Positions 23,798-32,934 are shown, counted from the stretch's first letter. The stretch is 64,000 nucleotides of DNA from Gammaproteobacteria bacterium (GCA_026197075.1 JAPHQV010000013.1:1-64000); one strand, 5' to 3'. Notes: generated by a model not told the origin, from the letters alone. Numbers and translations: made by a program.

Positions 23798-25102
23798 TCA
23801 GCCCTGGTTAATCTCTTCGTTGTCATCCATTGGCGCCGCCTTGCGCACCGCCGCGATATCCTCCGCACTGTCCAGCCCCTGTTCGGCCCGTCGCAAGGCC
23901 AGCCGGGCATACTTCAATGCGGCTTTTCGGAGTGGTTCATCGTCGAGATTTGCCAGTGCCCGCAGGCCCTTCTGCAGGCGGATCCCAACCTCCACCACGG
24001 CAGCACCGTCTCGGGCGATCGGTGTGAACGCATCATCGAACATATCATCGACTGATAGAAGCGGGACCTCAATCCTGTCGTAGCGGGGTTTATCCTCATC
24101 TGACTTGTTGGTGTCCGCCTGGTGTGGCTGACCCCAGAGTACGAACAGCCGCACCAGTCTGCCGATGATATCGATACCGGTGCCCGGATCATTTACAGCC
24201 GGTGACAATGCGTGGCTGGCTATTTCCGAGAGCACCACCAGCGCAAAACGCGGATCATCTTCAAAGGTTCTCACTTTGCCGATCAGAAAGGCCTCGAGCA
24301 GTTTTTTACGCTTGGCCTCTGTCAGTTCACCAGATGTACTTCTGATGAAGGCCAGCGGACGATCAGGCGTGACAAAGGTGCCGGGCAGTACGGCCAAGCG
24401 GATTCGGTCCTTCCACTGACAAGCGCAGTCCTGTAGCTGAGCCATGTCGATATGCTGGATATAACCGACCATGGGGCTGAACAGTTTCTCCCCCGTGGGG
24501 TTGTCCCCGGTGGCGGGGATGCCGCCCAGCGCAGGTGCATCCCGGCGACGGCGCATGGCATTCGCCGCCGTTCGCTCGACGGTGTCAACGGTCGTGCCAA
24601 CCCTGCCAAGGCGGGCGATTCTGTCGACCCAGCGCACAAAGGTGAGGATCACGATGGAAAATACCAGCGCGGTCAGTGCCAGCAAGGTGAAAAGGCCTGC
24701 GCCCTCGTAGTACTGGTTTTTTACCGCCGTCAAGGCCACGATGCTGAAAATAAAGGCACCGATAAAGGTCGACAGGGCGTTCTGCGACAAATCATCGGCA
24801 ATCACCAGTTTCAAGGATCGTGGCGTTGCTGTGCTGCTTGCCGAGGCGTAGGCGGAAACCATGGAAGCCACTGCCAGTGTGGCAATCACCATCATGCTGG
24901 TGGCAATCACGGATAACAGCGTCTCCACCGCTTCGGGGTCGATCCTTGGCAACCAGGTGTCCAGGCCCAGATCGTCAGTCAGTTTTGCCAGGAAGGCCGC
25001 CCCCACCGAAAGCAGGGAGATGATCAGTGGCTTGACCCACAGTTGCTTGCGCAGTCGTTGCAGGAAAAATCTGAGCCTATCCATCGACAGGTATGCGGTC
25101 AT
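23798..25102 (-). CDS. DUF2254 integral membrane protein
   Basis: A 434-residue protein. Four hydrophobic segments lie in the first about 165 residues (including PLIISLLSVGAAFLAKL and ALTALVFSIVILTFVRWVD). A long cytoplasmic region of DUF2254 type follows, with ALSPAVNDPGTGIDII as a landmark. The start at 25102 has GGAG at the proper distance; in-frame Met codons upstream lack one. Function is unknown; some family members are thought to be channel-like. It is transcribed convergently with the tRNA-Glu unit. Confidence 0.85.
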   Translation of the reverse strand: MTAYLSMDRLRFFLQRLRKQLWVKPLIISLLSVGAAFLAKLTDDLGLDTWLPRIDPEAVETLLSVIATSMMVIATLAVASMVSAYASASSTATPRSLKLVIADDLSQNALSTFIGAFIFSIVALTAVKNQYYEGAGLFTLLALTALVFSIVILTFVRWVDRIARLGRVGTTVDTVERTAANAMRRRRDAPALGGIPATGDNPTGEKLFSPMVGYIQHIDMAQLQDCACQWKDRIRLAVLPGTFVTPDRPLAFIRSTSGELTEAKRKKLLEAFLIGKVRTFEDDPRFALVVLSEIASHALSPAVNDPGTGIDIIGRLVRLFVLWGQPHQADTNKSDEDKPRYDRIEVPLLSVDDMFDDAFTPIARDGAAVVEVGIRLQKGLRALANLDDEPLRKAALKYARLALRRAEQGLDSAEDIAAVRKAAPMDDNEEINQG

Positions 25103-25170
25103 CTTCGTCTCCATTGCATCCATGCCATTCGGCGGAGTCTACCTCCGCTTCCGTGGATATTTGAGCGCGA

Positions 25171-25839: not shown

Positions 25840-26172
25840 TCGTCCATTCCCGCATCCAGTTGTCCATGAGCATATCAGGGTTGATCGCCCCCTGTATGCC
25901 ATGCGGGCGATGTATGCCTGCATCCTATACCCGGAAGAGACCCTGAACAATGATGGCAAGGGTTTGAAATCCATGACGCTGGTTGAGTAGACTCGAAGAG
26001 GAACTATACTCAGGAAAACGCTGATTAATCCGCTGGGCCCACGAGTTAATCCGTCATACCCGCGTACGACTGCATGGATGCAGGAGGTGCAGCAGTGCAT
26101 GGAGCAATTGCCGAGGCGGACAATCAGATATTTGGATGCATGGATTACTCGCTTGGCTCATCGACGGAGTGG
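25840..26172. other. 333-base divergent intergenic region
   Basis: This space separates the minus-strand membrane protein from the plus-strand TVP38 gene and should carry both promoters. It contains a decayed half-copy of the CCGTCAT palindrome family at 26051-26080, preceded by the same GTTAATCCGTCAT context seen at other copies. Nothing else is recognisable. Confidence 0.5.
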
Positions 26173-26928
26173 ATGGTGAAACAGGTTCCCGATAAGTCTC
26201 ATGTCAAGCGAATGCAGTCGCCGCTATTGGGTATCGCGGCCAGCATACTGTTCGTTGCCGCCATCCTTGCGGTTATGGTTTATTATGACGTGCATGAGCA
26301 GGTGCTGCAGCTGCTGGGTTGGTTCGAGGCGCAGGGCGCATGGGCGCCGTTGCTCTTTATCCTGGTCATGACGGCGGTTGTGGTGCTGTTGCTTCCGGGT
26401 GTGCTGTTCACGACCGGTGCCGGTTTCGTGTTCGGGCTTGTGGAAGGTTCCATCTACGTTGTGGTGGGCACCACACTCGGTGCAACCCTGGCATTCCTGA
26501 TCGCACGCTATCTGTTCGGGAATCGTGCCAGGCGGTTCATCATGGCCCACGCCAGGTTGCGGCTGGTCAGCGACGAACTCACGCCAAACGGCTGGAAGAT
26601 CGTGCTCCTGACACGCCTGATCCCGTTTTTCCCGAGCAAGATCTCCAATTACTTCTTCGGTCTGACCCGGTTTTCCTTGCGTGGTTATATAGGCGGCTCA
26701 GTGCTGGGTTTCATACCTTTTTCCATCCACAATGTGTATCTGGGCTCCATCGCGGCCGATATCACCACACTGGGCGCCCGTAACCTGGATCGCTCACCTC
26801 TGGAATGGAGCCTATATGGTGCGGGTTTCATTGTCACCGTTATCGCGGTCGTCTACCTGAACCATCTTGCGCGCCGGGCCTTGGCGCGCTATGCGGAAAA
26901 AGGTGACATCAAGGAGGATATTGCGTGA
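26173..26928 (+). CDS. TVP38/TMEM64 (DedA-superfamily) membrane protein
   Basis: About 251 residues from the ATG at 26173; starts at 26074 or 26140 are also in frame and no site is decisive. Five or six transmembrane segments surround the VTT motif region: GVLFTTGAGFVFGLVEGSIY, GATLAFLIARYLFG, then LLTRLIPFFPSKISNYFFGL. These proteins are inner-membrane lipid scramblase or transporter-like proteins. The stop overlaps the next start (GTGA), so it heads the envelope operon that follows. Confidence 0.88.
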   Translation: MVKQVPDKSHVKRMQSPLLGIAASILFVAAILAVMVYYDVHEQVLQLLGWFEAQGAWAPLLFILVMTAVVVLLLPGVLFTTGAGFVFGLVEGSIYVVVGTTLGATLAFLIARYLFGNRARRFIMAHARLRLVSDELTPNGWKIVLLTRLIPFFPSKISNYFFGLTRFSLRGYIGGSVLGFIPFSIHNVYLGSIAADITTLGARNLDRSPLEWSLYGAGFIVTVIAVVYLNHLARRALARYAEKGDIKEDIA

Positions 26929-29171
26929 GCTGGATGAAATGGTTGCCCTGGCGCTTTATCGTGCGCCATGTCGCGCGCAAGCAAGGGTTTCTGGACCCCA
27001 TTGCCCTGCTGGGTCGTCTGCATAACTTCGCCCAGCCTTCCGAGGTCGGCGAACCCATCGAGTTGCTCAGGGCCGGGGTCGTCTTTCACGCGCGTGGCTT
27101 GATCAACAGCCGCGTCATTCAGCACAATCTGGACTGGGTCTGGCCTTACTGGATCGAGCGTCAGTTCGATCCATACGACGAGTCGTTTATTCCGCGGGCT
27201 TTTTCCATCACCCATATCAATCTTACCCATCGCAACTGGACCGCGATCGGGTACCCGGATTGCCAGGAACTGCCAATCGTCGACCCCCGCGGCCTGTTGA
27301 CCCCCTTCCTGGACGGTTGGTCGCTGGATGGCTGGTTGCTGGCCAAGGATGGCCGTTGCCTGTTGCCTTCGCGCGCTCCCGACTGCCTCCAGCACCAGGA
27401 GATGGACGCAGGTGTTTGCATCAGCACCGAGACGGAAATGGACGGCCTGGCCCTGGCCAGCCGGGCCTGGGTGGAACTGGAATCCGGTATCCCCGTCTGC
27501 AGGCTGAATTTGCGGGCACATGCCGATAGGGATGCCTGGATCGTCCTGGCGCTGCGACCGTACAACCCGGAGGGGATCAGCTTTGTCCACCAGGTCAAGC
27601 TCACGGAGGAACGCAAAACCTGGATCATCGACGATACCCGGCGGGTCGAATTCAGCTCGGCGGCGGAACGACACCACGTCTCCGACTACCGCAACGGTGA
27701 TGTATATATCCATCTCAAGGACACGGAAGACCAGGTGGAAGGGCTTTGTGACGTGGGAATGGTCACCGCGGCGGCGCTTTTCCCGGTAAAGGCCGGTGAG
27801 AATGGAGAATTGACCGCGACGATTCCACTCGCGGTCGCGGACACCGAGATGCTCGGCCCCGATGCCTGGAACAACACGCACCAGGGTCTCTGTGCACTAG
27901 CCTGTCCGGAACCGCGTTACCAGTTTCTCTACGACGCGGCGGTAGCCTCCCTGATATTGCATTCTCCGGATGATGTCTATCCTGGGCCCTTCACCTACAA
28001 GCGCTTCTGGTTTCGTGATGCCGCCTTCATCATTCATGCGCTCCTCTGTGTCGGATTGACGGATCGTGCCGAGCGTGCACTGTCGCGGTTCCCGGAACGA
28101 CAAACCGTGCTCGGGTATTTCCGTTCCCAGGAAGGCGAATGGGACGCCAATGGGGAAGTGTTGTGGATCCTGAAGCGCTTCTTCGACCTGACCGGAACGG
28201 CGCCCTCGGACGAATGGCACGGCCCCATCCAGCGGGGCGCGCGCTGGATCATACGCAAGCGCCTCGACGACGAACTGGATGCACCCCATGCCGGCTTGCT
28301 GCCGGCTGGTTTCAGTGCCGAACACCTGGGTCCCAATGATTATTATTTCTGGGATGATTTCTGGGGAATTGCCGGCCTGCGGGCCGCGGCGGCCATGATG
28401 AATGAGGCGGATCCCGATCAAGGAAAGGAGTTCGAACTGGCCGCGGAGGAATTTACCGCGGCGGTGGATCGCAGCCTGGCGGGTTGCGCAAGGCGCCTTG
28501 CGCGCCCGGCCATGCCGGCATCACCTTATCGCCGACTGGATGCCGGCGCCATCGGTTCCCTGGCGCTCGGGTACCCGGTGCAGCTCGGCGCGCCGGATGA
28601 TCCGCGCCTGCTCGATAGCGTGGAGTTCCTGATCGACCGTTGTTTTGTGCGTGGTGCGTTCAACCAGGACATGATCCACTCCGGGCTCAATGCCTACCTC
28701 ACCCTGCATGTCGCCCAGGTATTGTTGCGCGTCGGAGACCCGCGCTGTCTCGACCTGATGGACGCGGTGGCTGCCCTGGCCTCGCCGACAGGGCAGTGGC
28801 CCGAGGCCATACATCCACGCACCGGTGGTGGCTGTATGGGTGACGGTCACCATGTCTGGGCATCCGCCGAATGGATCATGATGATACGCAACTGTTTCGT
28901 CCGCGAGGAGGGGGATTGCCTCATTCTCTGCGCCGGTATACCCGCGCGCTGGCTCGACCAGGATGCCCCGATCCGTTTTGGCCCCGCACCCACGTCCTTT
29001 GGCGCTGTAACCCTGACGATAATGCCGGATTCAAAGCAAGGGCCACGCATCGAATGGCAGGCTGACTGGCATGATGGCATGCCGGAAATGGACATTCGTC
29101 TGCCCGGTTTCGAGCCGGTAAAGGTAACTCCCGGCATGGACTCCGTGGTGCTCGTCAAAAAGGATGCCTGA
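26925..29171 (+). CDS. Six-hairpin (alpha/alpha)6 glycosidase-like protein
   Basis: A 748-residue soluble protein with GTG start preceded by AAGGAGG. The N-terminal half is beta-rich. The region around residues 360-650 shows repeated helical hairpins with aromatic motifs: YKRFWFRDAAFIIHALL, DYYFWDDFWGIAGLRAA and TGQWPEAIHPRTGGG. The pattern with conserved Arg-Asp, Asp-Asp and Pro-Glu fits the six-hairpin glycosidase superfamily (GH15/GH63/GH94-like). I cannot assign a family or substrate. No signal peptide is seen, so it acts in the cytoplasm. The GT4 gene follows after 3 bases, implying synthesis and trimming of one glycan or glycolipid. Confidence 0.7.
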   Translation: MSWMKWLPWRFIVRHVARKQGFLDPIALLGRLHNFAQPSEVGEPIELLRAGVVFHARGLINSRVIQHNLDWVWPYWIERQFDPYDESFIPRAFSITHINLTHRNWTAIGYPDCQELPIVDPRGLLTPFLDGWSLDGWLLAKDGRCLLPSRAPDCLQHQEMDAGVCISTETEMDGLALASRAWVELESGIPVCRLNLRAHADRDAWIVLALRPYNPEGISFVHQVKLTEERKTWIIDDTRRVEFSSAAERHHVSDYRNGDVYIHLKDTEDQVEGLCDVGMVTAAALFPVKAGENGELTATIPLAVADTEMLGPDAWNNTHQGLCALACPEPRYQFLYDAAVASLILHSPDDVYPGPFTYKRFWFRDAAFIIHALLCVGLTDRAERALSRFPERQTVLGYFRSQEGEWDANGEVLWILKRFFDLTGTAPSDEWHGPIQRGARWIIRKRLDDELDAPHAGLLPAGFSAEHLGPNDYYFWDDFWGIAGLRAAAAMMNEADPDQGKEFELAAEEFTAAVDRSLAGCARRLARPAMPASPYRRLDAGAIGSLALGYPVQLGAPDDPRLLDSVEFLIDRCFVRGAFNQDMIHSGLNAYLTLHVAQVLLRVGDPRCLDLMDAVAALASPTGQWPEAIHPRTGGGCMGDGHHVWASAEWIMMIRNCFVREEGDCLILCAGIPARWLDQDAPIRFGPAPTSFGAVTLTIMPDSKQGPRIEWQADWHDGMPEMDIRLPGFEPVKVTPGMDSVVLVKKDA

Positions 29172-29174
29172 CAG

Positions 29175-30461
29175 ATGAACATTCTCATACTGACCAACAC
29201 CTTTACGCCACACGTCGGCGGTGTCGCGCGTTCGGTCGCGGCCTTCACCGAGGAATACCGTAATCGCGGGCACCGGGTTCTGGTGGTTGCCCCGGAATTT
29301 CCCATGATGCCGGAACATGAAGTCGATGTGGTGCGGGTTGCCGCCATCCAGAATTTCAACGCCAGTGATTTTTCAGTCGCACTGCCGTTACGCATCGGCC
29401 TGACGGATGTGATCGATGATTTCGAGCCTGATATCGTTCACTCGCAACATCCATTCCTGCTTGGAATGACCGCCTTGCGGATTGCACGATACCGGGAAAT
29501 CCCCCTGGTATTCACGCACCACACATTGTACGAACAGTATACCCATTACGTTCCTGGTGATTCTCCCGCCATGAGGCAGTTCGCGATCAACCTGGCAACC
29601 CGTTATGCCAATCTCTGTGACCAGGTATTCGCGCCCAGTGAAAGTGTCAGGGATCTGCTGGTGGAGCGTGGTGTTACCACGCCCATCGCGGTGGTACCTA
29701 CCGGTGTCCATCTCGAAAGCTTTGCACAGGGAGACGGGCAGGCCGTGCGTGCAAAAAGGGGTATTCCGGAACAGGCTTTCGTGGTTGGACACCTGGGCCG
29801 TCTCGCACCGGAGAAAAACCTGGAGTTCCTGACCCGCGCGGTTGCGGCTTTCGTTGCTACCCATCCGGATGCACACTTCCTGGTAGTCGGTACCGGTCCC
29901 TCCGAAGAGGCCATGAAGTCTGTTTTCGCCAAGGCGGGCATCGAGGAGCGCCTGCATATTGTCGGTACACTACAGAAACAGGAATTGGCCGATGCCTTGC
30001 ACGCAATGGATGTCTTCGTCTTTGCTTCACAGAGCGAGACCCAGGGGATGGTCCTGACCGAGGCCATGGCAGCTGGCCTGCCGATCATCGCTCTCGATGG
30101 CTCCGGTGTGCGGGAGGTGGTCAAGGACGGGAAGAACGGGCGATTGTTGTTGGAGGAAACCCCGGAGGCGATTGCTTCCGCCTTGCAATGGCTGGCAGGG
30201 CTGCCGTCCGAAGAGGTTCACAAGCTCAAACAGGCGGCGCTCGATACGGCCGAGGCTTTTTCCATGCCACATACGGCAGACAAGGCCCTGGCCTGCTACG
30301 AGGAGGTCTTGTCCTGGGTGCCGCCGGTTCCCAGTGAGGATCTCGGAAACTGGGACGATGTCCTGGTCTGGGTCAGGACTGAATGGGATATCCTGAAAAG
30401 TGTCGCCGGCGCGAGTGATGCGGCGCTTGCAGCCAGTATTTCACCCGATAAGGAAGACTGA
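29175..30461 (+). CDS. GT4-family glycosyltransferase
   Basis: A 428-residue GT-B enzyme. The N-terminus MNILILTNTFTPHVGGVARS has the glycine-rich loop of GT4. The acceptor domain contains DIVHSQHPFLLG and FTHHTLYEQYTHY, and the donor site has LGRLAPEKNLEFL and FASQSETQGMVLTEAMAAG (the E-x7-E motif). These features are close to diacylglycerol glucosyltransferases and mannosyltransferases that use membrane lipid acceptors. Context with a TVP38 protein and a phosphodiesterase supports a glycolipid product, by inference. Confidence 0.9.
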   Translation: MNILILTNTFTPHVGGVARSVAAFTEEYRNRGHRVLVVAPEFPMMPEHEVDVVRVAAIQNFNASDFSVALPLRIGLTDVIDDFEPDIVHSQHPFLLGMTALRIARYREIPLVFTHHTLYEQYTHYVPGDSPAMRQFAINLATRYANLCDQVFAPSESVRDLLVERGVTTPIAVVPTGVHLESFAQGDGQAVRAKRGIPEQAFVVGHLGRLAPEKNLEFLTRAVAAFVATHPDAHFLVVGTGPSEEAMKSVFAKAGIEERLHIVGTLQKQELADALHAMDVFVFASQSETQGMVLTEAMAAGLPIIALDGSGVREVVKDGKNGRLLLEETPEAIASALQWLAGLPSEEVHKLKQAALDTAEAFSMPHTADKALACYEEVLSWVPPVPSEDLGNWDDVLVWVRTEWDILKSVAGASDAALAASISPDKED

Positions 30462-30501
30462 TGCGGCACTCCTATTGGACCGGTCGATCGGTGCCAGGCC
30501 C

Positions 30502-32934
30502 ATGATCGGACGGATCGAGGTTCTGTTCAGGCGCATACGTCGTATTCTCAGTCGCAGTGTCTGGCTCTCCCGCTTGCTTCAGTTGCCGGTATCGGAAGGC
30601 TCGCCGACCCGTCCAGGGCTGATCCTGATCCAGATCGACGGACTTTCGCAGCCACAATTGGAGCGTGCCCTGAAGCGCAGGGAGCTGCCATTTCTCGCGC
30701 GACTGATCCGACGCGAACACTACAGAATCCACGCCCATTATTCCGGTTTACCTTCCACGACACCCTCGGTACAGGCTGAACTGTTCTATGGCGTCAAGGG
30801 TGCGGTGCCGGCCTTTTCCTTCAAGGAGCACGAGACGGGCCAGGTGGTTCGAATGTACGAACCGGATGCGGCTGCGCGCGTCGAATCCCTATGTTCGGAT
30901 GAAGGACATGAACCATTGCTCAAGGATGGAAGCGCCTACTCGGATACTTTCACCGGTGGTGCGCAGGAGAGCCATTTTTGCCCGTCCTCCATGGGTTGGG
31001 GTCCGTCCCTGCGTGGCGCCAACCCCCTGGTGCTGATCGTGTTTCTCCTGGTCAATTTCTACAGTTTTTTGCGTATCGGGATCCTGCTGTTGATGGAATT
31101 AGGCCTCGCACTGGTGGATTTTGTGCGCGGGCTCATTCGTGGGCAGGATTTTTTCAAGGAACTGAAATTCATACCGACGCGAGTGGCCATATCCATTCTA
31201 TTGCGGGAACTCTGCGTGATCGGCGGTAAGATCGATATCAGCCGTGGCCTGCCCGTCATTCACATCAACTTCCTCGGTTACGACGAACAATCGCACCGTC
31301 GCGGCCCGCGCTCGCTGTTCGCGCATTGGACATTGAAGGGCATCGACGACGCCGTCGCACGGCTCTGGCGTGCCGCCAACCACTCGGTATGGCGACACTA
31401 CGACGTCTGGATCTATTCCGATCACGGCCAAGCCCGCGTCAAGGCCTATCATGAGCAGCAGGGATATAGCCTGGAGGAGGCTGTCCAGCGGACGTTCGAG
31501 AAATTGAATGTTGACCCACAGGGAACCCGATTCAAGGACGCGGGCAGCGTACAGACCCAGCGCGTTCGCCTTTTGGGCGGAAACAGGGTACAGCGCCTGT
31601 TCTCGGTGTTCGGCGTGAATGATGATACCCCGCATGAGCAGTATCCCGCGCTCGCCGCGCTTGGTCCTGTCGGGCACATCTATTCACCCTGGAAATTAAA
31701 CGAAGAGGAACGGGATTCCGCCGCCCTCGAGCTGTCGCGCACGCACCAGATTCCCGTCGTGCTTACCGTCGAGGCTCCGGGTGTATTGTGCGCCCGCACC
31801 GCGGAGGGTGAATACCAGCTGCCGCGCGACTGTGCCGAGCTGTTCGGGGCGCAACATCCGTACCTTGGTTCCATTGGCGAGGATCTGGTGCGCCTCTGCG
31901 AGCATGTGGATGCGGGTGATTTCGTGATCCTGGGTTGGCGAGACGGGCTTTCCCCGCTGACCTTCGCAGATGAGAACGGCGCGCATGCCGGTGTCTCACC
32001 GGATGAGACCAACGGGTTTGCATTGCTTCCCGACGACACACATCTGCCATCGAACGGACATGGCTACCTGCGTCCCATGGACCTGCGTAACGCAGCCTTG
32101 CGACACCTGGGCCGAACGGACCACAAACCCGGCGCCTTGCGCAGGCATGTGGCCACCACCCAGACCGATATCCTTCGTGTCATGACCTATAACGTCCATA
32201 GCTGCGTCGGAATGGATGGCAAGATCGATGCCGAGCGGATCGCACGTGTCATTGCCCGCGCCCGACCCGACGTGGTGGCGCTGCAGGAGCTCGATGTGGG
32301 CCGTGAGCGTAGCTATGGAATGGACCAGGCGCAGCTGATCGCCCATTACCTGGAGATGGAATTCCATTTCCATCCGGCCATGCACCTGGAGGAGGAACGC
32401 TATGGTGATGCAATCCTGACTCATCTGCCCCAGCGCCTGGTGAAAGTCGGTTCGCTGCCGGGGCTGGCGGAGCGGCCCAATCTGGAGCCGCGTGGAGCGC
32501 TCTGGGTTGCCATCGATCTGAATGGCCAGGAAGTCCAGGTGATCAACACCCACCTGGGGTTGTTTCCACGCGAACGCCTGGCCCAGATCGAAGCCTTGCT
32601 CGGTGATGACTGGCTGGCCAATGAAAAATGCCAGGGCCCGGTGATCTTCTGCGGGGATTTGAATGCCAATCCTTCGTCGCCCGTATGTCGCCGGGTCGGT
32701 GCGAGGTTCAGGGATGCGCAAGTGGTGGCGCGGGACCACCGTCCCAAGGGTACCTTCACCAGCCGCTTCCCGAACCTGCGTATCGATCACCTCTTTGTCA
32801 GCCCCGGTATCGAAGTGACCGGCATCGAAATCCCCGCTTCGCAGCTCGCGCGCATTGCCTCCGATCACCTGCCGCTGCTGGCGGAACTGCGCATTCCCGG
32901 AGAGGATGGCGCCGCCAGTCACCCCCGACTTTGA
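30502..32934 (+). CDS. Fused type I phosphodiesterase (alkaline phosphatase fold) and EEP-family hydrolase
   Basis: About 810 residues from the ATG at 30502 (GTG at 30400 would overlap the GT gene). The N-terminal half is an alkaline-phosphatase-superfamily hydrolase: LIQIDGLS (metal Asp46), STTPS (nucleophile Thr87), YDEQSH (Asp261, His265), YSDHGQ (Asp307, His308) and NGAHAG (His). A double transmembrane hairpin sits at about residues 173-212. From about residue 555 a complete EEP domain follows: MTYNVHS, VVALQELD, INTHLG, FCGDLNANP and SDHLP. The EEP part resembles YbhP, which is encoded beside cardiolipin synthase in E. coli. Two phosphodiester hydrolases in one membrane-anchored chain point to phospholipid or lipid-linked glycan turnover. 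Confidence 0.85.
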   Translation: MIGRIEVLFRRIRRILSRSVWLSRLLQLPVSEGSPTRPGLILIQIDGLSQPQLERALKRRELPFLARLIRREHYRIHAHYSGLPSTTPSVQAELFYGVKGAVPAFSFKEHETGQVVRMYEPDAAARVESLCSDEGHEPLLKDGSAYSDTFTGGAQESHFCPSSMGWGPSLRGANPLVLIVFLLVNFYSFLRIGILLLMELGLALVDFVRGLIRGQDFFKELKFIPTRVAISILLRELCVIGGKIDISRGLPVIHINFLGYDEQSHRRGPRSLFAHWTLKGIDDAVARLWRAANHSVWRHYDVWIYSDHGQARVKAYHEQQGYSLEEAVQRTFEKLNVDPQGTRFKDAGSVQTQRVRLLGGNRVQRLFSVFGVNDDTPHEQYPALAALGPVGHIYSPWKLNEEERDSAALELSRTHQIPVVLTVEAPGVLCARTAEGEYQLPRDCAELFGAQHPYLGSIGEDLVRLCEHVDAGDFVILGWRDGLSPLTFADENGAHAGVSPDETNGFALLPDDTHLPSNGHGYLRPMDLRNAALRHLGRTDHKPGALRRHVATTQTDILRVMTYNVHSCVGMDGKIDAERIARVIARARPDVVALQELDVGRERSYGMDQAQLIAHYLEMEFHFHPAMHLEEERYGDAILTHLPQRLVKVGSLPGLAERPNLEPRGALWVAIDLNGQEVQVINTHLGLFPRERLAQIEALLGDDWLANEKCQGPVIFCGDLNANPSSPVCRRVGARFRDAQVVARDHRPKGTFTSRFPNLRIDHLFVSPGIEVTGIEIPASQLARIASDHLPLLAELRIPGEDGAASHPRL

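Follow-up and report, generated by a model that had tools for sequence, protein, structure and literature searches.

A conserved cassette linking a VTT/TVP38 protein, a glycosidase-like protein, a glycosyltransferase and a fused phosphoesterase may make and recycle a membrane glycolipid in diverse bacteria

In several bacterial glycolipid systems, a glycosyltransferase occurs together with a flippase or a phospholipase. In the plcP-agt system, glycolipids are made from phospholipids (PMC9239053); gpgSDF of Pseudomonas aeruginosa comprises a family 4 glycosyltransferase (GT4), a predicted flippase and a modifier, the product being glycosylated phosphatidylglycerol (PMC12713373); and hexSDF of Clostridioides difficile places a glycosyltransferase, a modifier and a flippase-like protein in one membrane-glycolipid operon (PMC10128005). 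The DedA superfamily includes flippases of undecaprenyl phosphate (UndP), as well as COG0398 proteins, which are proposed phospholipid scramblases and have been argued not to flip UndP (PMC10127716). Here, we describe a cassette at positions 26173-32934 of a 64,000-nucleotide stretch of gammaproteobacterial DNA (JAPHQV010000013.1:1-64000, hereafter the window, located on contig C11 of a 3.0-Mb genome), which encodes a VTT/TVP38 membrane protein, a six-hairpin glycosidase-like protein (GH), a GT4 and a fused phosphoesterase (PDE-EEP). The four genes stay together in many unrelated bacteria and therefore very probably represent one undescribed pathway.

All four genes lie on the plus strand; the first two overlap by 4 bp, and gaps of 3 and 40 bp follow in turn. 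A first-pass annotation, made from the sequence alone, had described them as overlapping or lying within about 40 bases, and its domain identities (TVP38, glycosidase-like, GT4 and a phosphodiesterase/EEP fusion) were also borne out, by Pfam matches and, for the GH, by a predicted model.

26173..26928, plus strand: VTT/TVP38 membrane protein (251 amino acids, GTG start; PF09335, 86.6 bits)
26925..29171, plus strand: unclassified six-hairpin glycosidase-like protein, GH (748 amino acids; from predicted model and alignment)
29175..30461, plus strand: GT4 glycosyltransferase, retaining-type (428 amino acids; PF13439, 124.9 bits; PF00534, 124 bits)
30502..32934, plus strand: fused phosphoesterase PDE-EEP (810 amino acids; PF01663, 44 bits; PF03372, 80.6 bits)

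The GH start codon falls inside the VTT stop. We place the PDE-EEP start at 30502 because most homologues begin there, at residue 35 of a longer but unsupported open reading frame from 30400.

Compared with the described systems, the cassette resembles plcP-agt in pairing a phosphoesterase with a GT4, but PlcP is a calcineurin-type phospholipase C (a calcineurin-like metallophosphoesterase), whereas the cassette has PF01663 and PF03372; moreover, plcP-agt contains no VTT protein or glycosidase and is phosphate responsive, whereas no convincing Pho-box signal was seen for the cassette. With gpgSDF it shares a GT4 and a membrane protein encoded in one operon with a further enzyme; gpgSDF, however, has a UPF0104/YbhN flippase and a deacetylase modifier and no phosphoesterase or glycosidase, and domain search and flank survey revealed no PF03706 protein and no deacetylase in the cassette. 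The hexSDF operon, with its glycosyltransferase of the MGDG-synthase type, MprF-like flippase and deacetylase, likewise differs in having no glycosidase or phosphoesterase. The COG0398 DedA/TVP38 proteins belong to the same superfamily as the cassette VTT protein but have mostly been described as single-domain proteins with no fixed partners, whereas the cassette VTT gene is locked to the glycosidase gene. We therefore treat the likeness to plcP-agt, gpgSDF and hexSDF as an analogy of how the parts may work, not as membership. A search of the literature (open-licence papers) returned no description of the gene set, of a fusion of NPP-type and EEP domains with a hydrophobic insert, or of the glycosidase family, in keeping with the first-pass annotation, whose author knew of no described system with this set; the other single domains are known.

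The linkage of the four genes is far beyond chance: dozens of distant genomes repeat their order and spacing amid unrelated flanking genes. Genome contigs were scanned with the GH alignment alone; of the 376 relatives that this returned, the 80 best loci were retained, and further loci were added. The VTT and GH genes were adjacent in all 57 loci having both, with an overlap of exactly 4 bp in 41 of them, and adjacency was also found for GH and GT4 (60/64 loci) and for GT4 and PDE-EEP (43 of the 44 loci holding both). The exceptions were two gaps of 166 bp, one of 305 bp, one locus with a VTT gene in between (L020) and one with PDE-EEP upstream of VTT (L087). Pairwise protein distances among the four genes were correlated at 0.88-0.93. 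The flank survey of carrier loci revealed no further conserved partner gene and nothing common beyond genus-level synteny; among 77 flanking proteins, any one Pfam family was represented at most twice. Within a sample of 370 genomes of the class, a close GH was present in 19, a close PDE-EEP in 12 and both in 9, where about 0.6 would be expected under independence. Our results strongly support the view that the four genes form one co-inherited functional unit.

The partial sets show that the cassette consists of two coupled halves that travel together, VTT-GH and GT4-PDE/EEP. The first half occurs by itself in Marinobacter, Marinimicrobium and an Oleiphilaceae bin. The idea that Marinobacter holds the second half elsewhere was rejected: PDE-EEP was absent from all 16 such genomes searched, and GT4 was represented by a distant relative (31-35% identity) lying, in 15 of the 16, within a frame of about 740-880 amino acids. 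In the Marinobacter-type frames that were read, GT4 is fused behind a metallophosphoesterase-like region, and a PF03706 flippase-type gene lies directly upstream. This fusion, found at a separate locus with a metallophosphatase-like domain instead of NPP and EEP, contains the nearest GT4 relative of the cassette (about 34%) in genomes that keep VTT-GH. Its phosphoesterase part scores just below the Pfam cut-off in one case and was undetected in another, and its motifs appear degenerate by eye, so that phosphoesterase activity seems doubtful. Among the cassette genomes searched, the fusion also occurs in Haliea alone; in the others, its nearest relative is mostly the cassette GT4. At L115:6707-10002 (also L117 and L118), the gene for the fusion overlaps an LPG_synthase_TM gene by 4 bp. 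At L068:9360-9997 (Marinobacter similis) and G401:C1:1061650-1062797, an apparent frameshift splits the VTT gene and, within one genome, the phosphoesterase-like-GT4 fusion is broken as well, as correlated decay or sequencing errors would produce.

Other incomplete sets were GT4-PDE/EEP without GH in three genomes, two of whose contigs end near GT4, and GH-GT4 without PDE-EEP in several; the short open reading frames that follow GT4 in loci without PDE-EEP are unrelated to each other. Sedimenticola encodes the EEP domain as its own gene upstream of VTT, with the PDE domain by itself downstream; the two fusion partners therefore remain members of a single unit despite the split. The neighborhood conservation that had been proposed as a check on the first-pass annotation was thus clear, and separate occurrence in relatives, named there as a ground for abandoning the idea, was confined to VTT-GH alone, GH-GT4 without PDE-EEP and GT4-PDE/EEP without GH.

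Carriers belong to the Gammaproteobacteria and Betaproteobacteria, and isolates include Thiobacillus, Thiohalophilus, Thiohalobacter, Rheinheimera, Arsukibacterium, Sedimenticola, Methylobacter and Bowmanella; metagenome-assembled genomes (MAGs) labelled Desulfobacterota, Nitrospinota, Nitrospirota and Riflebacteria also carry the cassette, although binning errors may underlie such labels. Rheinheimera pacifica has all four genes, and Thiohalophilus has VTT-GH-GT4. In the 370-genome sample, the distribution was patchy. Genomes akin to that of the window include MAGs titled Lysobacteraceae and Thiogranum, and in the GH tree the window's own family is scattered, with G003 beside Tenderia and G007 and G006 elsewhere; the window GH is nearer to that of Thiobacillus (79% identity) than to that of G003 (66%). 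This pattern fits transfer or repeated loss. AddA was considered as a yardstick of vertical inheritance and rejected, its occurrence being too patchy, and a search for plasmid carriage gave a single match, distant and partial (23.5% identity), for GH.

Conserved catalytic residues support the view that the cassette encodes real enzymes: sites expected of active proteins appear intact in the PDE, EEP, GT4 and GH alignments. The GT4 has the features of a retaining GT-B enzyme of family 4, with both glutamates of the EX7E motif (E288/E296) invariant in 44 sequences, with H116, R209 and K214 likewise invariant, and with a conserved C-terminal "EWDILK" stretch. Its best curated model is alpha-monoglucosyldiacylglycerol synthase (NF049988; 158.3 bits against a cut-off of 400); it reaches 121 bits against 480 with a model for GlcNAc-phosphatidylglycerol synthase, and MshA and GlcN-phosphatidylglycerol synthase are among the further curated matches, all of which are far below their cut-offs. 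Among solved structures it matches PimA together with the non-lipid MshA, and it also shows similarity to exopolysaccharide glycosyltransferases. Hydropathy revealed no transmembrane segment or signal-like start.

The PDE-EEP protein consists of an NPP-type domain of the alkaline phosphatase superfamily (about residues 36-530) and an EEP domain (about 555-800). The first-pass annotation had called it membrane-anchored; there is no N-terminal anchor by hydropathy, and what stands of that description is a conserved hydrophobic helical insert (about 172-246) inside the phosphodiesterase domain. D46, T87, D261, H265, D307, H308 and H495 are invariant, which we take to be the metal and nucleophile set of the nucleotide pyrophosphatase/phosphodiesterase active site. 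In a profile search of the PDB, solved NPPs were weak matches, 2gsn over residues 253-320 only, so the PDE assignment draws on that match, on Pfam and on the conserved residues. In the EEP domain, N564, E596, D719, N721, D788 and H789 are invariant, and its model matches 4ruw best (Z 29.8, root-mean-square deviation 2.4, 240 aligned), the Bt3783 mannosyl-6-phosphatase (Z 27.1), human neutral sphingomyelinase (25.6) and TDP2 (about 25), neutral and bacterial sphingomyelinases together spanning Z 22-26 with nucleases alongside; the modelled fold alone does not choose a substrate. The closest free-standing EEP relatives found, 53-55% identical, are on rhizobial replicons (Rhizobium), and in each of the two loci read a PLD-family gene precedes them by about 1 kb.

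The GH has no Pfam or NCBIfam match and is the only domain of the cassette not already known. Its AlphaFold2 model (pLDDT 78.7, pTM 0.84; N-terminal 100 residues poor) comprises a beta domain and an (alpha/alpha)6 barrel, and its PDB matches are tied among GH15, GH65, glucodextranase and amylo-1,6-glucosidase (Z 24-27). The fold comparison did not single out a family (GH15, GH65, GH133 or GH116), numerous (alpha/alpha)6 families being level at Z 22-27, and a PDB profile search with 48 GH homologues gave no match. The acidic residues E405, D407, E466 and E627 are invariant in the alignment and are candidate catalytic residues. Distant larger homologues (about 1030-1150 amino acids; L108:3004-6087 and L110:4303-7755) carry F5/8 type C (discoidin) domains and match the amylo-alpha-1,6-glucosidase model (GDE_C) weakly. 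Like GT4, the GH has no signal peptide or transmembrane segment by hydropathy, and the "trimming" proposed in the first-pass annotation would therefore occur on the cytosolic side.

The VTT protein scores 86.6 bits with PF09335, well above the gathering score of 33.9, placing it in the VTT/DedA superfamily. R148, P151, P154, K156 and N159 are invariant in the alignment, and these sites resemble the COG0398 type, which suggests that the protein may be a phospholipid scramblase. An UptA-type UndP flippase was rejected (20.3 bits against a cut-off of 250). The genome that carries the cassette also encodes a 729-amino-acid fusion in which a PLD (cardiolipin-synthase-like) part is followed by a VTT domain at the C terminus (G000 contig C51, L119:3368-5557), and a GT4 that is 34% like that of the Marinobacter-type fusion lies about 5 kb away (L119:10405-11880).

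We propose that the operon serves to make, move and recycle a membrane glycolipid in a self-contained process of synthesis and turnover, a reading to which we assign a probability of roughly 0.42. PDE-EEP, held at the membrane via its hydrophobic insert, would cleave either a glycosyl-phosphate bond or the head group of a phospholipid, so that an acceptor (diacylglycerol or a phospholipid head group) is supplied or cleared; GT4 would then add a sugar to that acceptor at the cytosolic face with configuration retained, the VTT protein would let the lipid cross between leaflets, and the cytosolic six-hairpin glycosidase would take the sugar off again, as trimming or turnover. The lipid substrate, sugar, order of steps, topology and regulation in this scheme are all inferred. 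We favor it because of the precedents plcP-agt, gpgSDF and hexSDF, in each of which a glycosyltransferase is joined by a flippase or phospholipase, and the conserved order, spacing and correlated divergence, with no other recurring partner, are consistent with it, as are the invariant active-site residues of the enzymes. So are the lipid glycosyltransferases among the best curated GT4 matches, the EEP matches to sphingomyelinases, the PLD-family gene near the Rhizobium EEP relatives, the PLD-VTT fusion, and the situation in Marinobacter, which keeps VTT-GH and has the nearest GT4 relative fused to a phosphoesterase-like domain beside PF03706. Several observations weigh against it: GT4 is far under every curated lipid-glycosyltransferase cut-off; the fold neighbors of GH act mostly on soluble glycans; TDP2, CCR4 and the Bt3783 mannosyl-6-phosphatase rank beside sphingomyelinases as EEP matches, and EEP folds serve nucleases and sugar phosphatases equally; the partial sets (GH-GT4 without PDE, VTT-GH without GT4) mean that not all steps are obligatory; and a phosphate-stress role like that of plcP-agt is unsupported. 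With GT4 below those cut-offs, two elements of the first-pass annotation, a glycolipid or lipid-linked glycan as the product and the completeness of the set, remain inferences. A more specific version, in which a horizontally spreading operon deglycosylates and reglycosylates a membrane lipid by means of NPP and EEP, a lipid-acting cytosolic glycosidase and a dedicated VTT scramblase, is rather doubtful.

The solubility of GH and GT4 by hydropathy would also suit a pathway for soluble glycosides or oligosaccharides, in which GT4 makes a cytosolic alpha-glycoside (a compatible solute or storage oligosaccharide), the six-hairpin enzyme degrades it, the phosphoesterases dephosphorylate sugar-phosphate intermediates and VTT has a separate function in membrane stress. 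The fold neighbors of GH (glucoamylase, glucodextranase, and kojibiose and glucosylglycerol phosphorylases), the presence of MshA, with its soluble product, among the best GT4 matches and the mannosyl-6-phosphatase of the EEP fold all fit this main rival; however, VTT adjoins GH wherever both occur, and a conserved hydrophobic insert in the phosphodiesterase would be odd. We consider this rival unlikely. We judge it less probable still that GT4 and GH build and edit a glycan on UndP, with phosphoesterases recycling its phosphodiester or pyrophosphate linkages and VTT acting as an UptA-like flippase. The cutting of phosphodiester and pyrophosphate bonds by NPP-type enzymes, the GT4 similarity to exopolysaccharide glycosyltransferases and the UndP flippases of the DedA superfamily (PMC10127716) point toward it, whereas the low UptA score (20 bits against 250), the COG0398-type sites and the flank survey, which found no linked initiating transferase, ligase or polymerase, argue against it. 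The least probable of the accounts considered is an operon for general upkeep of the membrane with no shared pathway, in which independent phospholipid and sugar housekeeping enzymes were selected for joint transfer: the separate occurrence of modules and the patchy distribution would be expected, but not the correlated divergence, the constant order, the overlaps suited to translational coupling or the lack of other genes in the unit.

A phosphate-starvation regulon was not supported, there being no clear excess of Pho boxes upstream of 72 cassette copies: the best match averaged 9.15/14, compared with 8.83 in shuffles, and 6 of the 72 regions, duplicate records included, scored at least 11. 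The upstream regions contained no conserved palindrome beyond near-identical genus copies. Anti-phage defense was rejected, no PADLOC match being found for any of the four proteins. In the window itself, one weak feature lies upstream:

25964..26010, plus strand: two overlapping sigma-70-like promoter matches

These two are within chance (2.7 expected in shuffles). A DUF2254 membrane protein is encoded upstream (23798-25123, minus strand), and AddB (TIGR03623 family; 32936 onward) may start one or two bases past the stop codon of PDE-EEP, which would allow co-transcription of AddAB with the cassette in this genome; both neighbors adjoin the cassette only within the genus, AddAB being absent from this position in other carriers. 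Elsewhere, in one Hydrogenophilales bin, about 9.4 kb encoding a GMC oxidoreductase, cytochrome c, COX1 and CtaG separates VTT from GH (L018:551-10000), and cytochrome bd genes lie directly upstream of the cassette at L048.

Cassette carriers include sulfur oxidizers, methanotrophs and marine bacteria, and, if the glycolipid reading is true, these organisms would possess a way of making membrane glycolipids distinct from plcP-agt, gpgSDF and hexSDF. A cytosolic glycosidase acting on lipids, if confirmed, would be a bacterial parallel to the cytosol-facing glucosylceramidase. No physiological substrate has been established for COG0398-type bacterial VTT/TVP38 proteins; in the cassette, one such protein is tied to three catalytic genes across distant lineages, and the metabolite handled by the cassette enzymes should thereby reveal the cargo of the VTT protein.

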